This document shows, piece by piece, positions 17,015 to 29,086 of a stretch of DNA of 40,407 nt (position 1 is the stretch's first letter; each line of letters begins with the position of its first letter). The translations under genes and the position numbers were made by a program. Source of the DNA: Sulfobacillus benefaciens (lineage in GTDB: Bacteria; Bacillota; Sulfobacillia; Sulfobacillales; Sulfobacillaceae); the NCBI GenBank assembly GCA_003023725.1, contig PXYT01000033.1:1-40407 (forward strand), written 5' to 3'. The notes beneath the pieces are model-generated. The model ran no database searches. It saw only the letters and a program-made list of their open reading frames with translations, and was not told the origin of the DNA.

Positions 17015-17132
17015 ACATTGCTTCATGGGTTTGAACAGGCATTATTTACGGGCCGGGAACAATAACCGGGCTATTGCCACAGGTTTTAAAAAGCCTTTTC
17101 TTGAGCTTTGGCGTTACTATGAGGAGGGCAAG

Positions 17133-17834
17133 ATGAGCCGGCCACTGTATTACTGGTACGCCGTTATTCCCTGCATATCCTTTAACCCGGATCAATTTCC
17201 CGTAACCGTCACTTCGATCCCGCTTGAGGTGTTGGCATTTCGCGACTTATCCGCCGTAGTATCGCCCACGGCGGCTCCCCGCGAACTCCTGAATTCGCGG
17301 ACGGCCCGGAAGCACGAACGGATCATGGAATGGATCTCGGAAGTCAGCAGTTACCGAATATTGCCCTTTCGCTTTGGCTCAGTTGTATCCGGCGAGCAGA
17401 TAGAGAGAACGCTGGCTGAACGTTACGACGAATGGTTTCGTACCCTGCAAACCGTGAGCGGGCGCGTTGAAATGAGTCTCAAAGTCCTCCAATCTCGGCC
17501 TCAAGAGATGGCTATCAGCACTCCTGCCCTGCCTTCCTCATATCTGACCCGACGTCTCCGGGAGCGATCACGGCAGCAAGCCTGGCACTGGGAAGCCGAG
17601 TCCATTAATGAGAGAATTCAGCAGCATCTGGAGCCATGGTACATTCGAAAATATGAGAATGTGACGCGCCCCGCGCCGATCCTAATCAACAGTGCGTATC
17701 TCGTGGAGAAGGACACGGTGCCTATGTTCGCCAATGCGATCCGAACACTCATCCGGGAATTTACGGCGTTTCAATGGCTTTGCACCGGCCCCTGGCCCCC
17801 ATACCACTTTGTTACGGAAGGAAGAGCACAATGA
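17133..17834 (+). CDS. Gas vesicle assembly protein GvpF/GvpL (copy 2)
   Basis: A 233-residue GvpL/GvpF protein: YYWYAVIPCIS at the N-terminus, SYRILPFRFGSVVSGEQ near residue 75 as the family signature, and APILINSAYLVEKDTVPMF near residue 190. ATG at 17133 has GAGGAGGGC just before it and is preferred over the longer reading from 17025. It sits in the position of gvpL, before gvpK, and overlaps gvpK by the four bases ATGA. It diverges strongly from the other two copies. Confidence 0.87.
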   Translation: MSRPLYYWYAVIPCISFNPDQFPVTVTSIPLEVLAFRDLSAVVSPTAAPRELLNSRTARKHERIMEWISEVSSYRILPFRFGSVVSGEQIERTLAERYDEWFRTLQTVSGRVEMSLKVLQSRPQEMAISTPALPSSYLTRRLRERSRQQAWHWEAESINERIQQHLEPWYIRKYENVTRPAPILINSAYLVEKDTVPMFANAIRTLIREFTAFQWLCTGPWPPYHFVTEGRAQ

Positions 17835-21564: not shown

Positions 21565-22662
21565 ATGGCCTTAAATCCTTCACAAGTCTACCTCTATGCG
21601 GCCGACCCGCCTGATTATCAAATTGCCCTGGGCGCCGCAGCGATATCCGGGATTCCCTGGGAACAGGTGATGGGAAATTTCTACGATGCCTGGAATACCG
21701 TGGCGAATGGCAGCTATTTGGTCATTGCCGTAGGCGCTCCAGCGAATAACGCGTTGTACTACAATCCGTGTGGTTGGCCCAATCCATCCCATGAAGCCCA
21801 GGGTTCAACTCCCTTTGATCTGGCCCCGTCACCCGCGGATACCCTGCCAGGACGGAATTGGTATGAAAGTGCAGCGGGAGAATTCGGCTACCAAACTTTT
21901 CTCATTGCGGCAGCCTTTGCCTATTATGCTACCCACGGATCTCTCCCCAGCACTCTATCCTCCTATCCCTCCCCTATCAGTCCCCTGCATGTCTGCGATG
22001 GCAGTCTGGTTGTCGCATTTCCTTCCATATCATCTTGCGTCAACGGGGTGGATTCGGCCACAAATCTCGGTCCTGTGGCAACTTGTCTGAAGAGCCATGG
22101 CTATGATTTTGTGGCGAGATATCTTGGCGGACCTTGTTTTGCCGGCACGCCTTTAACCCGAAGTGAGATCCAGCAACTCACCTCGGCCGGGCTACTCGTC
22201 GCCAGCATTTATTCCGGGGCAAACGGAACGAGCCTGGTTAACTGTGGAACGCAAGATCTCACTCAAGGACAATTGGACGGGAATTCTGCGGCCACACTGG
22301 CCCGAGCGATTGGCCAGCCCGCCGGCACAGCGATTTATTTGGGAATGGAATCGGATCAAACTCATCCGTCTTGGCTCGCTTATGTTCAGGGATGGACCCA
22401 AGCCGTCGCGGCCCAAGGATATATGCCGGGTGTCTATTCGTCGCAAAGTCAGCTAACCACAATTCATGAGCAACCCTGGGGACTCTCTCATCTTCTCTAC
22501 TGGCTTGCCCAATGGACGCACCCAGGCGCCATAACTCCAGCTCCGTGTCCGTCCACCATGTTGAGTTACGCCAGAATGTGGCAATATGTCGGAAACAGCA
22601 GCATGTGCAACACCGCCATTGATGTGAACAGTGCCCAAGGAACAGTGGGGATGTGGTCCTAA
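21565..22662 (+). CDS. DUF1906 (Rv2525c-like) glycoside-hydrolase-fold protein
   Basis: A 365-residue protein. Residues about 155-365 match the DUF1906/Rv2525c-like TIM-barrel family: start GVDSATNLGPVATCLKSHGYDFVARYLGG, then LTRSEIQQLTSAGLLVASIYSG, IYLGMESD (catalytic-type acidic strand), GYMPGVYSS, and a C-terminal WQYVGN...AIDVN. Residues 1-150 are a separate, unrecognised domain (YAADPPDYQIALGAAAISGIPWEQV). No signal peptide, yet such proteins usually act on peptidoglycan or glycans; in Firmicutes many are spore- or phage-associated. Cysteines are unusually common. A role in remodelling cortex or surface glycan is plausible. Confidence 0.72.
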   Translation: MALNPSQVYLYAADPPDYQIALGAAAISGIPWEQVMGNFYDAWNTVANGSYLVIAVGAPANNALYYNPCGWPNPSHEAQGSTPFDLAPSPADTLPGRNWYESAAGEFGYQTFLIAAAFAYYATHGSLPSTLSSYPSPISPLHVCDGSLVVAFPSISSCVNGVDSATNLGPVATCLKSHGYDFVARYLGGPCFAGTPLTRSEIQQLTSAGLLVASIYSGANGTSLVNCGTQDLTQGQLDGNSAATLARAIGQPAGTAIYLGMESDQTHPSWLAYVQGWTQAVAAQGYMPGVYSSQSQLTTIHEQPWGLSHLLYWLAQWTHPGAITPAPCPSTMLSYARMWQYVGNSSMCNTAIDVNSAQGTVGMWS

Positions 22663-23215
22663 AACTCAAGAATTCCCGTCGTGTGGATGTCATTTCGGAT
22701 TTTGTGATGGCCCCCCAGATCACGTCTGCTACTATCGCCCGCCGGTATCGCAAGCCTTCTGAATCTCCCAGAGGGCGGGCGGCGAACGGCCGGCAGTAAG
22801 AGTATGATGCGTGGGCCGACAAATGTCACAGGCGGATTTTTCAAGTGTTACCTCATTATGTGTGGTCCCGTGAGTCCTCCCGCTCAGCGATCTTCCCCAT
22901 GGGAATCCCTTGTGGTGGCATGTTGGCTTCCTGGCGAGACAAACACGCCAGGATGGCCGATCCCGTTTCCACACTCTTATTGTGCCGCGATATGGAAACT
23001 GTCTCCTCCTTTACCCCGGACCCGAACCCGGGCAACCCGAACAAGCGGTGCGAGACGCCACGGTATCTCAATTAAAGAGGAGATGGCCATAGCAGTGAGA
23101 GGACATCAAAATCAGTCCCTTAAACATCCCCGGAATTCTCCAAGCCGAATCAAAACTCTTCGAGCCACTCAAGAGATGGACGCGGGGAGGACAAACCGGA
23201 CAGGAAGAAAAGCCT
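22663..23215. other. Intergenic stretch with no confident gene
   Basis: About 550 bp. Long open frames exist on both strands (for example 22804-23394 plus), but none has a suitable ribosome-binding site and the longest runs antisense through panD. A GC-rich inverted repeat (CGCCCGCC / GGCGGGCG, about 22739-22785) follows the DUF1906 gene and could act in termination. Confidence 0.4.
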
Positions 23216-23260
23216 TGACTGAAGACATCATGTATTCTCACACAACGATGTCTTCAGTCA
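23216..23260 (-). terminator. Rho-independent terminator of the sulfonate/panD operon
   Basis: TGACTGAAGACATC and GATGTCTTCAGTCA form a perfect 14-bp stem around a 17-base loop. On the minus strand it is followed closely by GGCTTTTCTT. It begins 18 bp after the panD-like stop. Confidence 0.7.
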
Positions 23261-23277
23261 TAACAAGGATGAATATC

Positions 23278-23667
23278 TCACTCCGGCACGGTGCGGAAGG
23301 CAATTTCTTCCCGCACGACTTCGGTGATATGGTTGTTTTCGTCGACAAATACCACGGCGGGGCGATGGGATGTCAACTCCTGGTGATCATATAACCGAAA
23401 TCCGATGATGATAACGAGGTCGCCAGGATGAAACAGTCTAGCCGGCGGACCGTTAAGACAGATGTCTCCCCCATGGGGCGGACCGGGAATAATGTAAGTG
23501 TGCCACAATTCTCCATTGGACAAATTGGTGATCTGAACCATTTCGTACGGCAAGAGTCCTGTAGCATCCAGCAACTCTTGGTCAATCGTAATCGAACCCA
23601 CGTAATTCAAATTGGCTTCGGTAACCCTAGCCCGGTGAATCTTTGCAGCCATCATGCGATATTGCAT
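23278..23667 (-). CDS. panD: PanD-like pyruvoyl decarboxylase with altered substrate site
   Basis: A 129-residue homologue of aspartate 1-decarboxylase. The self-cleavage site Gly24-Ser25 (NYVGSITID) is intact, as are Lys9, His11, Thr57 and Tyr58, so pyruvoyl formation is expected. The residue matching Arg54, which binds the substrate carboxylate in the Escherichia coli enzyme, is Leu (NGELWHTYII), and the Ala74-Ala75 pair is Pro-Pro (LNGPPARL). In B. subtilis PanD this stretch reads NGARLETYII. The start was chosen at ATG 23667 for exact family length. No panB or panC is nearby; instead it follows sulfolactate-type genes, so the substrate may not be aspartate. Confidence 0.8.
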   Translation of the reverse strand: MQYRMMAAKIHRARVTEANLNYVGSITIDQELLDATGLLPYEMVQITNLSNGELWHTYIIPGPPHGGDICLNGPPARLFHPGDLVIIIGFRLYDHQELTSHRPAVVFVDENNHITEVVREEIAFRTVPE

Positions 23668-23725: not shown

Positions 23726-24628
23726 TCATCGCTTCAAGTCCAAAACCTCTTTTATGCCCTCTGCGACGTAGCGAGCAATAGCTATTTGACTATCCTCGGT
23801 CAATCCGGCGATATGCGGAGTGCTCCACACATTCGTCAACATTCGCAGCCTGTCGTCTTGCAAAGGCGGCTCGATCTCGCGAACGTCCAAAATGGCTCCC
23901 CCCAGTTGTTTTGCTTCCAGTGCATGCAATAAGGCCGTCTCATCAATTAATTCTCCTCGGGCAGTATTGATCACGACAGAATGAGAATGTAAACGCTTTA
24001 GTGTGGTCTCATTGAGGAGATGAAAGGTCTCGTGCGTCAAAGGAACATGGAGGCTGAGAATATCTGCCCCCTCTAAGGCCTCCTCCACGGTTTCGGCTTT
24101 CAGTGATCCGGGAACCTCGGCAAACGGATCGAAGATCCTCAGCTTCATACCGAAGGACCGCGCACGATTGATCACGGCCTGGCCCGCCGCTCCATATCCT
24201 ATCACGGCCAACGTCTTTCCTGCGAGCTCCACACCGGACATGTCCCGAACCCATTGTCGCTCCCGAACCTGTAATGTCATTCGAAGAAAGTGGCGCTGAA
24301 AAGCAATGGCCATCCCGATCACATATTCTGCCACAGAAATAGCATTTGCTCCCCGGGGAACAATTAAACCAATATCCCTTTCTCGCAGCACCTCCTGATG
24401 AATGTTGTCGAGGCCGACCCCCAGTCGTCCCACCACTTGTAACAAGGGTGCCCGCTCAATCAATTCGGCATTCACCTGGGTTTTGTTGCGTACGATTAAG
24501 GCCCGGGCTCTGGCGATTTGGCTTAACAAAGCGTTCGAGTCCTGGTGAAGATCGGGATCATAGTAAACCTCATACGAAGACAGGATATCCAAGCCAACAG
24601 GGTGAATCATTTCGGAAATCAGGATCAT
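23726..24628 (-). CDS. D-isomer-specific 2-hydroxyacid dehydrogenase (sulfolactate dehydrogenase candidate)
   Basis: A 300-residue NAD-dependent dehydrogenase of the SerA/2-hydroxyacid family without a C-terminal ACT domain. Seen are the Rossmann motif VIGYGAAGQAV, the substrate/catalytic Arg in INTARGELIDE, the Glu in VREIEPP and the His in TPHIAG. The start overlaps the comA stop by four bases, so the products probably act in one pathway. SlcC, a known sulfolactate dehydrogenase, is of this family. It would oxidise 3-sulfolactate to sulfopyruvate or work in reverse. 3-Phosphoglycerate dehydrogenase is the main alternative. Confidence 0.78.
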   Translation of the reverse strand: MILISEMIHPVGLDILSSYEVYYDPDLHQDSNALLSQIARARALIVRNKTQVNAELIERAPLLQVVGRLGVGLDNIHQEVLRERDIGLIVPRGANAISVAEYVIGMAIAFQRHFLRMTLQVRERQWVRDMSGVELAGKTLAVIGYGAAGQAVINRARSFGMKLRIFDPFAEVPGSLKAETVEEALEGADILSLHVPLTHETFHLLNETTLKRLHSHSVVINTARGELIDETALLHALEAKQLGGAILDVREIEPPLQDDRLRMLTNVWSTPHIAGLTEDSQIAIARYVAEGIKEVLDLKR

Positions 24629-25425
24629 TTGTTATTCCGCCCGGACCCGACATGTTCGTGGTAGGCCGACAAACCCAGAGCATCCATGGTATCGTAGCGC
24701 AACCCGACGCGCAACGCTTCCAGACTCAGGATGTCTGCATGGGCAATATTGCCCAGATTGACGTTGCTGCCAAACTCCCTGATAAAGAGAATTTGCTGTG
24801 ATTCCAAAGGTGCCTCGAAGATCACTTCTTCAATTGGCAGCACTTCAAGAACCGCATTCATAATATGTACGTCCAGACGACCGTCTTGTCCATAAATTCC
24901 ACCGCGACCGCTTCCTCTTCCTTCCAGTATCACCTTATCGGCTCCGGCCTCGCGCAATTTCAAGGCTTCTTCGGCATAATCCTCTGCTGTCATTGACGAT
25001 AGGTCGGATTTTTGCCCAACCTCTGCCATAACATGAAAATGATGATGACGAGTAAAATCCTTGACCAATGCGGCTTTCTCATCCAGTGGTATCGGATAGC
25101 TTCCCGATGAAATTTCAACCCACTTCAAACCGCTGTGCGCGAGCAGTACCCGGTACTGGTCAAGCTTGTCTTGCGCCCAATATGTTTCAAATAACGTGCC
25201 GCCTAGAATAACCTCGATATCGTGAGCCTTGAGCCAGGAAATCTTCTCGTCCAGATTTTCAATGAGGTACGCAGTTCCAATGCCCAGCTTCGCGAAATCA
25301 ACATAACTCCCGGCCATTTTGGCGATATCCATCCACACATTAATCCCAATCCCACGGTCATTGACGACTGTCCATCCGTATTCTCTGGGCTTGGACGGAC
25401 GATATGGAATATGCAACACTCCCAT
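24625..25425 (-). CDS. comA: Phosphosulfolactate synthase (ComA family)
   Basis: A 266-residue TIM-barrel protein of the ComA family, which adds sulfite to phosphoenolpyruvate to give (2R)-phospho-3-sulfolactate. Recognisable segments are DFAKLGIGTAYL, EVILGGTLFETYWAQ, WVEISSGSYPIP and ILEGRGSGRGGIYG. ATG at 25425 is preferred (AGGTG nine bases upstream) over a longer reading. In archaea the product leads to coenzyme M; in B. subtilis the homologue makes sulfolactate, a major spore solute. Sulfite from sulfur oxidation could feed it here. Confidence 0.85.
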   Translation of the reverse strand: MGVLHIPYRPSKPREYGWTVVNDRGIGINVWMDIAKMAGSYVDFAKLGIGTAYLIENLDEKISWLKAHDIEVILGGTLFETYWAQDKLDQYRVLLAHSGLKWVEISSGSYPIPLDEKAALVKDFTRHHHFHVMAEVGQKSDLSSMTAEDYAEEALKLREAGADKVILEGRGSGRGGIYGQDGRLDVHIMNAVLEVLPIEEVIFEAPLESQQILFIREFGSNVNLGNIAHADILSLEALRVGLRYDTMDALGLSAYHEHVGSGRNNK

Positions 25426-25769
25426 GATTAAACACCTACCATTCCCTCTAAATTGTAGAGATTGTTTCGCCACCGACCTTCGGGTGCACAATTTTCAGGA
25501 GGAGGCGATGTATCGTGTTTTCAACGGGATAGCCTGAGACTCCATCACTCCACGGCTTATGGAGCGATCATAAAATCTAGGAGAAAAAAGGTTGAGGTGT
25601 TCCTATCTCATTGTCAGTAAATTCTGGGTAATAGTACCACCGACTTTATCCCCCGTCAAAACCTCTAACGGGTACACAGAGACTAAGAGGTGCATTGTCG
25701 TCCCCACATCTGAGATAAAAACTGGTTTCCTCCCATTTCCGCCGTTCTCGTCACTTATCGTACCAAATG
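25426..25769. other. Leader between the phosphatase and comA
   Basis: 344 bp without a supported gene, unusually long for the inside of an operon. comA may have its own promoter here; I found no convincing hexamers. Confidence 0.35.
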
Positions 25770-26345
25770 TCAATGGTTCGAAAGAATCTGTTCGATTTGC
25801 ACATGTGAGGACTCATCCGTAATTCGAACACGGATGATTGCGGTATTAGGAATATTGATGGTATGTATTCGATCCAGAGTCCAGCCCTGAAAATGGCACA
25901 AGAGACTTTTTAACGCCAAGTGATGCGACACCATAATGATCTGACTGTAGCGCATACGATAATCGTGGAATGCTCCCAGCATTCGCATTTGTAAATCCTT
26001 GAGGCTTTCTCCTCCGGGAAACCGAAAGGTTGCCGGTGATGATTGATACTCTTGCCACAGAGACGACCCTTCTAGATGTGCCTTGGACATCCCCTGCCAT
26101 TCTCCCACGTCAATTTCCCGAAGTCTCGCATCCGGTTGCACTTTCTGACCGGGCAAAGCCAACAACCGCGCCGTGTTTACGGCCCGTTGCAAATCGCTGG
26201 TGAATAGAGGCCATGGCGGCAGCGTGCCGCGGAGGCGTTCGGCCTGCATCACCCCGTCCTCCGATAGCTCCGCATCCGCCCAGCCTTGAAGAACCTTCTC
26301 TTTGTTCAGATTGGTTTCGGCATGGCGAATCAAATAACATTCCAT
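25770..26345 (-). CDS. Histidine phosphatase family protein (phosphosulfolactate phosphatase candidate)
   Basis: A 191-residue phosphoglycerate-mutase-like phosphatase. YLIRHAETNLN carries the phospho-accepting His of the RHG/RHA motif; TSDLQRAVNTA, LREIDVGEWQG and VSHHLALKSLLC give the other active-site Arg, Glu and His. Two starts are possible (26357 or 26345); the second fits the family. It lacks likeness to ComB, but its place 344 bp upstream of comA and on the same strand suggests that it dephosphorylates phosphosulfolactate. Cobalamin-pathway or general phosphatase activity is the alternative. Confidence 0.75.
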   Translation of the reverse strand: MECYLIRHAETNLNKEKVLQGWADAELSEDGVMQAERLRGTLPPWPLFTSDLQRAVNTARLLALPGQKVQPDARLREIDVGEWQGMSKAHLEGSSLWQEYQSSPATFRFPGGESLKDLQMRMLGAFHDYRMRYSQIIMVSHHLALKSLLCHFQGWTLDRIHTINIPNTAIIRVRITDESSHVQIEQILSNH

Positions 26346-26728
26346 GATGAGTAACATCCTTCCCTTCCTTCCTTCATTTCCTTATCGGATGTGAAGGTTT
26401 TTGGCTACATTAGCACGCACTTCGCGGGAATTCAATAGCACCGCCCCGGGCAGATTCCTCGTACCCCTAATTACTATGAGAAAACCCTGGCAGTCGTCCA
26501 TCATTATTTGTCACACGAGAGAAAGGCATGAATATGATGTGGATGAAGTCAGTAAATGGAAGGTATACAGCTGGCAACTGTGAGTTCAGCACATGAGTGT
26601 CATCATCGCCGCTTTCCATTTGACTTGCTTTTTCTGGCCGTACTTTTCATCGACCTTAGGGCATCCTTGATGCCTCACTCACCTATCATTGCTTAACCAA
26701 CCCGTCGCAACAAGGAGGTATGGCCCAA
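26346..26728. other. Intergenic stretch with no confident gene
   Basis: Nothing here has a convincing start. A plus-strand frame at 26401-26583 lacks a ribosome-binding site. Confidence 0.35.
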
Positions 26729-28120: not shown

Positions 28121-29086
28121 ATGAGAACGCCTCAACACTCTATCCGTATTATGAAAGCAGTTGATTTCGTAAGGAAACAGAGATCGGGAGGGTCCAAGCC
28201 CCTTTTGTTGCGTCTCGAGGACGGCCGTATTGCCCATGTTAAGTTTCAACGCAATCCTCAGACCACCCGCAGTTTGGTCAATGACCTTATCGGGACTTTG
28301 CTAGGCCACTCTTTAAAGGCTCCCGTAGCGGAAGCCGTATTGGTTGACGTTCCTTCGACACTGAGGGCCCAAATTCCCTATCTTACGAAATACCGCTGGC
28401 TGCCAGGCTTACAGTTCGGAACCATATATATCGAAGACGCCATTCCTATAAAACAATCCAAACGGCATCAAGACATTTCCAACTGGTCGGAGCTCCCTCT
28501 GTGCGCACTACTAGAGACATGGCTGTTTAATCAAGACGTTAAGCTGTCCCATGTGTTGTGCGTCCCCGAAAACGGCATGAGCCGGTTTATGATAGTTGAC
28601 CATGGATTCATTTTCCCGTCAGGGCCGTTATGGTCCATTCATGATTTGAAACGCAGAAAGGGAGAATTCCCCTCACCTGACGCCTTAACCTGGCTGGCCC
28701 TCAGGTCTCCTCACCGTTTCAATTTTGAGGATGCGCTGAACCGAATCAGTGCCTTGTCTTCTGATAACATAACCTCCGTCATCAGTCTTGTTCCTGCCGA
28801 GTGGGGGCTCTCCTCACAGCGCATGCGAGCCATCGCCGATTTTTTGGCATATCGGCAGAAGAAACTGGGAAACGTGGCAACAAAATTCCAAACCCTGTGG
28901 AATCGCAACAAGGAAGAGGTCGACGACGATGTGAAAACCCCGGACAGTCCGTCGTCTTCTCTTAATCTCCCGCTTGTGGCGGAACCCGTAACCTTTCACG
29001 AGGTTCCGCATATCCCAGACGTTCCGTTCAAAGAGGATATGTCTCAAAGTTCCGAAAAAGAAAGCAAAAAATCCGACCCGAGGTAA
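28121..29086 (+). CDS. HipA-like kinase-fold protein, probably inactive
   Basis: A 321-residue protein. Residues 20-240 resemble the HipA-like kinase family: PLLLRLEDGRIAHVKFQRNPQTTRSLVNDLIGTLL is the glycine-loop/Lys region and LFNQDVKLSHVL the catalytic loop, then FMIVDHGFIF the metal-binding Asp. The usual DRxxxNxN pattern of the catalytic loop is reduced to a lone Asp without the Asn residues, so it may be a pseudokinase. The last 80 residues are charged and disordered. GGAGG precedes the ATG. No HipB antitoxin gene is adjacent, so it is not a classical toxin-antitoxin pair. Confidence 0.6.
   Translation: MRTPQHSIRIMKAVDFVRKQRSGGSKPLLLRLEDGRIAHVKFQRNPQTTRSLVNDLIGTLLGHSLKAPVAEAVLVDVPSTLRAQIPYLTKYRWLPGLQFGTIYIEDAIPIKQSKRHQDISNWSELPLCALLETWLFNQDVKLSHVLCVPENGMSRFMIVDHGFIFPSGPLWSIHDLKRRKGEFPSPDALTWLALRSPHRFNFEDALNRISALSSDNITSVISLVPAEWGLSSQRMRAIADFLAYRQKKLGNVATKFQTLWNRNKEEVDDDVKTPDSPSSSLNLPLVAEPVTFHEVPHIPDVPFKEDMSQSSEKESKKSDPR

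Follow-up and report, generated by a model that had tools for sequence, protein, structure and literature searches.

Canonical aspartate decarboxylases (PanD; TIGR00223, PF02261), such as those of Escherichia coli, Bacillus subtilis, and Mycobacterium tuberculosis, are the closest described relatives of the protein considered here, with which they share a fold family, length, and Gly-Ser processing site, as well as Lys9, His11, Thr57, Tyr58, and Asn72. In the M. tuberculosis enzyme, the carboxylate of pyrazinoic acid, a competitive inhibitor, is held by the guanidinium group of Arg54 and the backbone NH groups of Ala74 and Ala75, in a position equivalent to that of the isoasparagine side-chain carboxyl; the R54A variant is inactive (PMC6969166). 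Arg54 is the residue that binds the beta-carboxylate in the M. tuberculosis enzyme (PMC6969166) and in the H. pylori enzyme (PMC3975893), and residues 55 and 56 of the C. jeikeium enzyme lie within 5 Å of docked aspartate (PMC10743139).

The operon described below also resembles known routes of sulfonate synthesis. The coenzyme M route of methanogens (ComABC-DE) and the synthesis of sulfolactate in B. subtilis spores (YitC) share their first steps, ComA and ComB, with related operons; these differ in that they end in a PanD homologue, with a D-2-hydroxyacid dehydrogenase or an ATP sulfurylase in between, and no ComDE was noticed among the genes examined. The PLP-dependent cysteate and cysteine-sulfinate decarboxylases catalyze the reaction proposed here, the conversion of cysteate to taurine, but have an unrelated fold and use PLP, not a pyruvoyl group, as their cofactor. 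Known cysteate synthases (the archaeal threonine-synthase paralogue and the CapA type) belong to the PLP beta-family fold, a class that they have in common with the PLP enzymes found beside PanD homologues in Bacilli and CPR bacteria; NCBIfam lists one such synthase. Searches of open-access literature for a pyruvoyl cysteate decarboxylase, or for a connection of PanD with cysteate and taurine, brought up no enzyme of this kind among the titles and abstracts retrieved.

Results

The PanD-like protein and its operon

The window, a stretch of 40,407 nt, is a whole contig from the 4.56-Mb draft assembly of the host, Sulfobacillus benefaciens, which is 98% complete. It encodes a PanD-like protein (Table 1) that matched Pfam Asp_decarbox (PF02261; E value of 4e-45, 152.8 bits against a cutoff of 25) and the NCBIfam panD model TIGR00223 (137.2 bits against a cutoff of 106). 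Its residue numbering is collinear with that of E. coli PanD, and the alignment with the E. coli and B. subtilis references is free of gaps up to residue 76, with identities of 36% and 52%, respectively. The alignment bore out the initial annotation with regard to the residues retained (Lys9, His11, Tyr58, and Gly24-Ser25, to which Tyr22, Thr57, and Asn72 can be added) and those replaced (Arg54 by Leu and Ala74-Ala75 by Pro-Pro); in addition, the canonical Phe/Leu55 and Glu56 are Trp and His. Leu54 has no guanidinium group and Pro74-Pro75 have no backbone NH, and because all three carboxylate contacts would thereby be removed, normal aspartate binding is argued against. The lost contacts do not by themselves argue for cysteate, which is likewise an anion; to judge from the alignment, a newly acquired Lys, Arg, His, or Gln at position 56, together with Trp55 and Thr47, may provide replacement contacts. 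Leu54-Trp55 and Pro-Pro are invariant in six of the other seven species in the genus; the remaining species is represented by a 61% complete genome that gave no PanD match. Since the pocket residues are fixed across species and define a clade (see below), chance or sequencing error was ruled out as their source.

Table 1. Features of the PanD-like gene and its operon in the window
Feature	Positions	Strand	Basis or remark
Trp55-type PanD homologue, 129 aa, predicted pyruvoyl-dependent decarboxylase	23278..23667	-	Family models, alignment, tree; ATG at 23667, stop codon 23280-23278
Gly24-Ser25 codons, predicted self-cleavage site yielding the pyruvoyl group	23593..23598	-	Ser25 in 170/170 and Gly24 in 168/170 Trp55 proteins
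Leu54-Trp55-His56 codons; Arg-Phe/Leu-Glu in canonical PanD	23500..23508	-	Alignment
Pro74-Pro75 codons; Ala74-Ala75 in canonical PanD	23443..23448	-	Alignment
Hairpin with U-rich tail, resembling an intrinsic terminator, after PanD stop	23203..23260	-	Folding z = -5.0
D-isomer 2-hydroxyacid dehydrogenase, 300 aa, PGDH-like	23726..24628	-	Profile matches; candidate sulfolactate dehydrogenase
Second, divergent ComA (phosphosulfolactate synthase homologue)	24625..25491	-	Pfam ComA, 245 bits
Promoter-like site, TTGACG-17-TACTAT, in the phosphatase-comA interval; matches the consensus weakly	25631..25659	-	Site scan
Histidine phosphatase	25770..26357	-	Profile match; position upstream of comA or dehydrogenase kept in relatives

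The PanD-like gene is the last of a row on the minus strand in which it follows genes for a histidine phosphatase, ComA, and a 2-hydroxyacid dehydrogenase, and it is thus linked to comA, unlike canonical panD, which is linked to panBC. The order comA, dehydrogenase, and panD-like gene had been recognized correctly in the initial annotation, which named no strand; with the histidine phosphatase upstream, the operon may have one member more, and this phosphatase could possibly stand in for ComB. The dehydrogenase start (24628) overlaps the comA stop (comA, 25491-24625), and the profile search matched no ACT domain in the dehydrogenase. The ComA protein is divergent; its score with NCBIfam arch_ComA (228.7) falls under the cutoff of 280, and it aligns to 1u83 and 1qwg. 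This operon contains no aminotransferase gene.

Where the initial annotation had a terminator, folding gave a 20-bp hairpin with a U-rich tail behind it, close to the PanD stop; this hairpin is absent from the list of a consensus scanner. The number of promoter-like sites found by the scan, including that in Table 1, was not above the shuffled background. Elsewhere on the contig, positions 17025-17834 encode a gas vesicle protein, GvpL/GvpF, near which ORFs up to about 19.6 kb resemble gas vesicle genes; a weak match to a HipA-like kinase (28121-29086) is near the operon, and a gene for an Rv2525c-like glycoside-hydrolase-like protein (21565-22662) lies downstream and is convergent with it.

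PanD and sources of beta-alanine in the host and its genus

One of the refuting conditions named in the initial annotation counts against an exclusive nonvitamin role. A profile search of the host genome found one PanD, the Trp55-type copy of the operon, together with panB and panC on other contigs, unlinked to it. Since the sole PanD is in a genome with panB and panC, there is still room for a role with aspartate in vitamin synthesis. The other genomes of the genus with a PanD match likewise have one PanD each, of the Trp55 type, and panC. The host has two ComA genes, the divergent one of the operon and a canonical one on contig C68 that is followed by comB (L122:5196-7026).

Two other sources of beta-alanine were considered. 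A PLP-type aspartate decarboxylase (PanP) was rejected, as the only PF00282 protein of the host is a glutamate decarboxylase. Most of the genus has a strong dihydropyrimidinase, which could belong to a route from uracil to beta-alanine; however, none scored over the cutoff in G001 and G006, and the enzyme does not provide a universal alternative. In G048, a genome of family f10, panC is present, there is no PF00282 protein, and the only PanD is of the Trp55 type. Complete coenzyme A pathways have been reported for Sulfobacillus genomes (PMC4378227), a count that may have included the Trp55 gene as panD.

The Trp55 branch of the PanD family

We aligned 213 PanD proteins, which comprised relatives of the host, sets from the class, and matches from a pattern scan of species genomes (Trp55-x-Thr-Tyr...Asn-Gly-Pro-Pro-Ala, with residue 54 left free). 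The scan returned at least 118 matching stretches, 80 of which were examined as loci; among the matches listed were Paenibacillus, Alicyclobacillus, Brevibacillus, Virgibacillus, Heliobacterium, MAGs, and CPR bacteria, and residue 54 was Arg in 36 of those listed, Leu in 27, Ile in 8, and Phe in 6. Residue 55 was Trp in 170 of the 213 proteins, Phe or Leu in 42, and odd in one; the scan fixed Trp55 and Pro-Pro and inflates the frequencies at those positions in its part of the set, whereas the relatives and class sets came from the family model and are free of that bias.

All 170 Trp55 proteins formed a single clade without an intruder (FastTree local support of 0.88, rooted on E. coli). Lys9, His11, Gly24-Ser25, Thr57, Tyr58, and Asn72 were common to both groups. 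The 42 canonical proteins had Val, Ala, or Ile at position 47, always Arg at 54, Phe or Leu at 55, Glu or Asp at 56, and Ala/Gly-Ala at 74-75, whereas the Trp55 branch had Thr at 47; Leu, Arg, His, Phe, Ile, or Trp at 54; Gln, Lys, Arg, Val, or His at 56; and mostly Pro-Pro at 74-75. The pattern at 54-56 and 74-75 persisted after thinning at 85% identity. The host protein, with Trp55, Thr47, and an intact processing site, falls within the clade. Leu54 alone was rejected as a marker of the branch, as 49 of its 170 members have Arg54; in the alignment, Trp55/Thr47 and the change at 74-75 mark it better. By the evidence of this alignment and tree, the Trp55 branch is a separate and widespread group of PanDs that has so far gone unrecognized.

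In the 60 relatives of the host, nearly all PanDs are of two kinds, one of the host type (mostly Leu54-Trp55 with Pro-Pro) and one with His54-Trp55 and mostly Thr-Ala, and the family-model search found no Arg54-Phe/Leu55 PanD in any genome of the order examined. The His54-Trp55 paralogue, found in the order at L073, L080, L087, and further loci, groups in a clade of its own (support of 1.0), mostly has Val56, reads SLTLG after the cleavage site, as opposed to SITID, and is the only PanD in several panC-containing genomes. The f33 PanDs (L293, L326, L335, and L336) combine Arg54-Trp55-Gln56 with Ala-Ala at 74-75 and are possible intermediates between the canonical and Pro-Pro types.

Linkage of Trp55 PanDs to comA within the class

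Searches for ComA and PanD over 154 genomes of the class, followed by reading of the loci, identified comA and panD genes that were codirectional and separated by at most one gene in 16 genomes (the host and 15 others) from four families. In the host's own family, phosphatase-comA-dehydrogenase-panD and reduced forms of it were found in G000, G002, G006, G008, G017, G024, and G032, and comA-panD was found in G009 and G018, the comA gene of the latter being degraded. The arrangement was comA-dehydrogenase-panD in f30 (G129, G130, and G131), comA-ATP sulfurylase-panD with a divergent comB in f41 (G160 and G161), and aminotransferase-comA-ATP sulfurylase-panD, again with a divergent comB, in f10 (G048 and G150). 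Adenylylsulfate reductase was rejected as the identity of a gene beside the G048 ATP sulfurylase, which is that of the succinate dehydrogenase SdhA. Because the ComA proteins of f10, f30, and f41 score like canonical ComA and those of the host's family are divergent, the linkage has probably originated, or been retained, on more than one occasion.

Every one of the 16 comA-linked PanDs carries Trp55 and Thr47, with Leu or Trp in place of Arg54, whereas all 16 of the panC-linked PanDs examined have Arg54-Phe/Leu55-Glu56 with Ala/Gly-Ala. Fisher's exact test gave a value of 3e-9 for this split, ignoring kinship among the genomes; since the genomes are related, the four families are the fairer count. 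The linkage is not invariable: G003 (L103) and G004 (L102) keep the phosphatase, dehydrogenase, and PanD genes, the comA gene of the operon is gone, and a canonical ComA is encoded elsewhere. Two relatives in the class, G047 and G056, have a Trp55-branch PanD and no panC. The comA-linked PanD of G161 (L292:3143-3538) has Trp in place of Gly24 at the cleavage site; the protein may be unable to process itself, or the residue may be due to an assembly error.

The Trp55 branch outside the class

Among 30 genomes chosen for a Trp55/Pro-Pro PanD, 22 hold a further PanD, which was canonical in all 22 read; Bacilli usually carry both types. Of the CPR-size genomes (0.4 to 0.7 Mb) with a member of the branch, 13 of 14 are without panC. 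Among the matches listed, the close neighbors of Trp55 PanDs in the 80 loci examined included YheC/D-like ATP-grasp proteins at 34 loci, PLP enzymes resembling threonine synthase at 16, most of them in Bacilli, and, in CPR bacteria, CysM-like PLP enzymes at 15. None of the PLP neighbors in Bacilli or CPR bacteria scored above the cutoff of a cysteate synthase model, and for this reason they are suggestive only. In Bacilli, the ATP-grasp neighbors are found at L151:2617-3387, L142:3628-4812, and 32 other loci, and F420-ligase-like proteins adjoin Trp55 PanDs in some CPR bacteria; these ATP-grasp and F420-ligase-like neighbors may join the amine product of the Trp55 PanD to a carboxylate.

Discussion

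The best explanation of these data is that the Trp55 branch consists of predicted self-cleaving pyruvoyl alpha-decarboxylases with a side-chain pocket remodeled to take a substrate other than aspartate. From branch membership, the intact cleavage site, the changed contact residues, and the repeated operon linkage, we infer the reactions that follow. By analogy with known PanDs, the chain would cut itself between Gly24 and Ser25, with conversion of Ser25 to the pyruvoyl group, which would form an imine with the substrate amine; CO2 would then leave, Tyr58 would reprotonate the intermediate, and the amine would be released. L-Cysteate is the simplest substrate, because the operon places PanD after ComA, the phosphatase, and the 2-hydroxyacid dehydrogenase. 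We postulate that ComA makes phosphosulfolactate from sulfite and phosphoenolpyruvate (PEP), that the histidine phosphatase, or ComB in other families, yields sulfolactate, that the dehydrogenase oxidizes it to sulfopyruvate, that an aminotransferase encoded elsewhere produces L-cysteate, and that the Trp55 PanD converts L-cysteate to taurine and CO2. We put the probability that the PanD of the comA operon chiefly carries out this last reaction at about one in two. In f10, it may be speculated that the class III aminotransferase returns the amino group of taurine to sulfopyruvate and thereby makes sulfoacetaldehyde, bypassing ComDE.

The idea of a cysteate-to-taurine reaction, first raised in the initial annotation, is therefore partly sustained: it gains strong independent support at the genome level from the linkage to comA seen in four families, the presence of ATP sulfurylase and comB in two of these, the split between comA- and panC-linked proteins, and the CPR genomes without panC, and it is weakened by the sole-PanD status of the host. 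Several other points count against it. A sulfonate needs anion-binding groups, and the only candidates left are His56, Thr47, Trp55, and Lys9. In a genus that has panB, panC, and a sole PanD, the Trp55 protein may still feed coenzyme A. Operons without comA in G003 and G004 and the want of an aminotransferase gene in the host operon also argue against the route. Finally, ComA leads to (R)-sulfolactate, and the relatives of the known ComC are lactate/malate dehydrogenases acting on (S)-malate (PMC5695019). (R)-Sulfolactate is L-like, and a D-specific dehydrogenase family would be a stereochemical mismatch unless the enzyme is atypical.

It is unlikely, in our judgment, that the protein is simply the aspartate decarboxylase of pantothenate synthesis, its pocket having drifted and its place beside comA being incidental. 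That explanation would fit a host that has panB and panC, no PanP-type enzyme, and a single PanD scoring above the NCBI cutoff, and an order in which all PanDs, those of panC-containing genomes included, are of the Trp55 type. Against it stand the inactivity of the M. tuberculosis R54A variant (PMC6969166), the canonical residues in 16/16 panC-linked and 0/16 comA-linked PanDs, the canonical copy that Bacilli keep beside the Trp55 protein, and the retention of the branch without panC in CPR genomes, G047, and G056; in most of the genus, although not in G001 or G006, the dihydropyrimidinase could meet the need for beta-alanine from uracil. Less probable is a dual enzyme that acts on both L-aspartate and L-cysteate where it is the sole PanD and is specialized where a canonical PanD is present. 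This would reconcile comA linkage with sole-PanD status in genomes with panB and panC, but residues 54, 55, 74, and 75 of the host protein are the same as those of the comA-linked copies of f10 and f41, and there is no sequence mark of dual use. Least probable is a substrate whose side chain is neutral or bears another charge, such as cysteine or a beta-substituted alanine from the PLP neighbors, whose amine would pass to a ligase; a pocket less cationic without Arg54 and the 74/75 NH groups and the PLP beta-family, YheC/D-like ATP-grasp, and F420-ligase-like neighbors in Bacilli and CPR bacteria are consistent with it, yet comA, comB, and ATP sulfurylase point to a sulfonate, and most members of the branch have exchanged the acidic residue at position 56 for Lys, Arg, His, or Gln.

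More tentatively than for the operon protein, the cysteate reading can be extended to the whole branch, which would then be a widespread pyruvoyl L-cysteate decarboxylase that ends a ComA taurine pathway in the class and is paired in Bacilli and CPR bacteria with PLP enzymes that possibly make cysteate, with many "aspartate 1-decarboxylases" misnamed. If so, the PanD fold would have a new substrate, bacteria would have a new route to taurine from sulfite and PEP, and the residue signature would tell the branch from the vitamin enzyme. It would also correct a common annotation that is used to infer pantothenate prototrophy from genomes and would account for the "panD" kept by tiny CPR genomes without panC. 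The branch bears, in addition, on PanD as a target for beta-alanine engineering. In two Bacillota MAGs, genes for a PLP enzyme and an aldehyde dehydrogenase, with a class III aminotransferase in one of them, precede PanD. The row at L146:111-4721 (threonine-synthase-like enzyme, aldehyde dehydrogenase, class III aminotransferase, and PanD) could be read as a path from cysteate through taurine and sulfoacetaldehyde to sulfoacetate or as one of beta-alanine breakdown.
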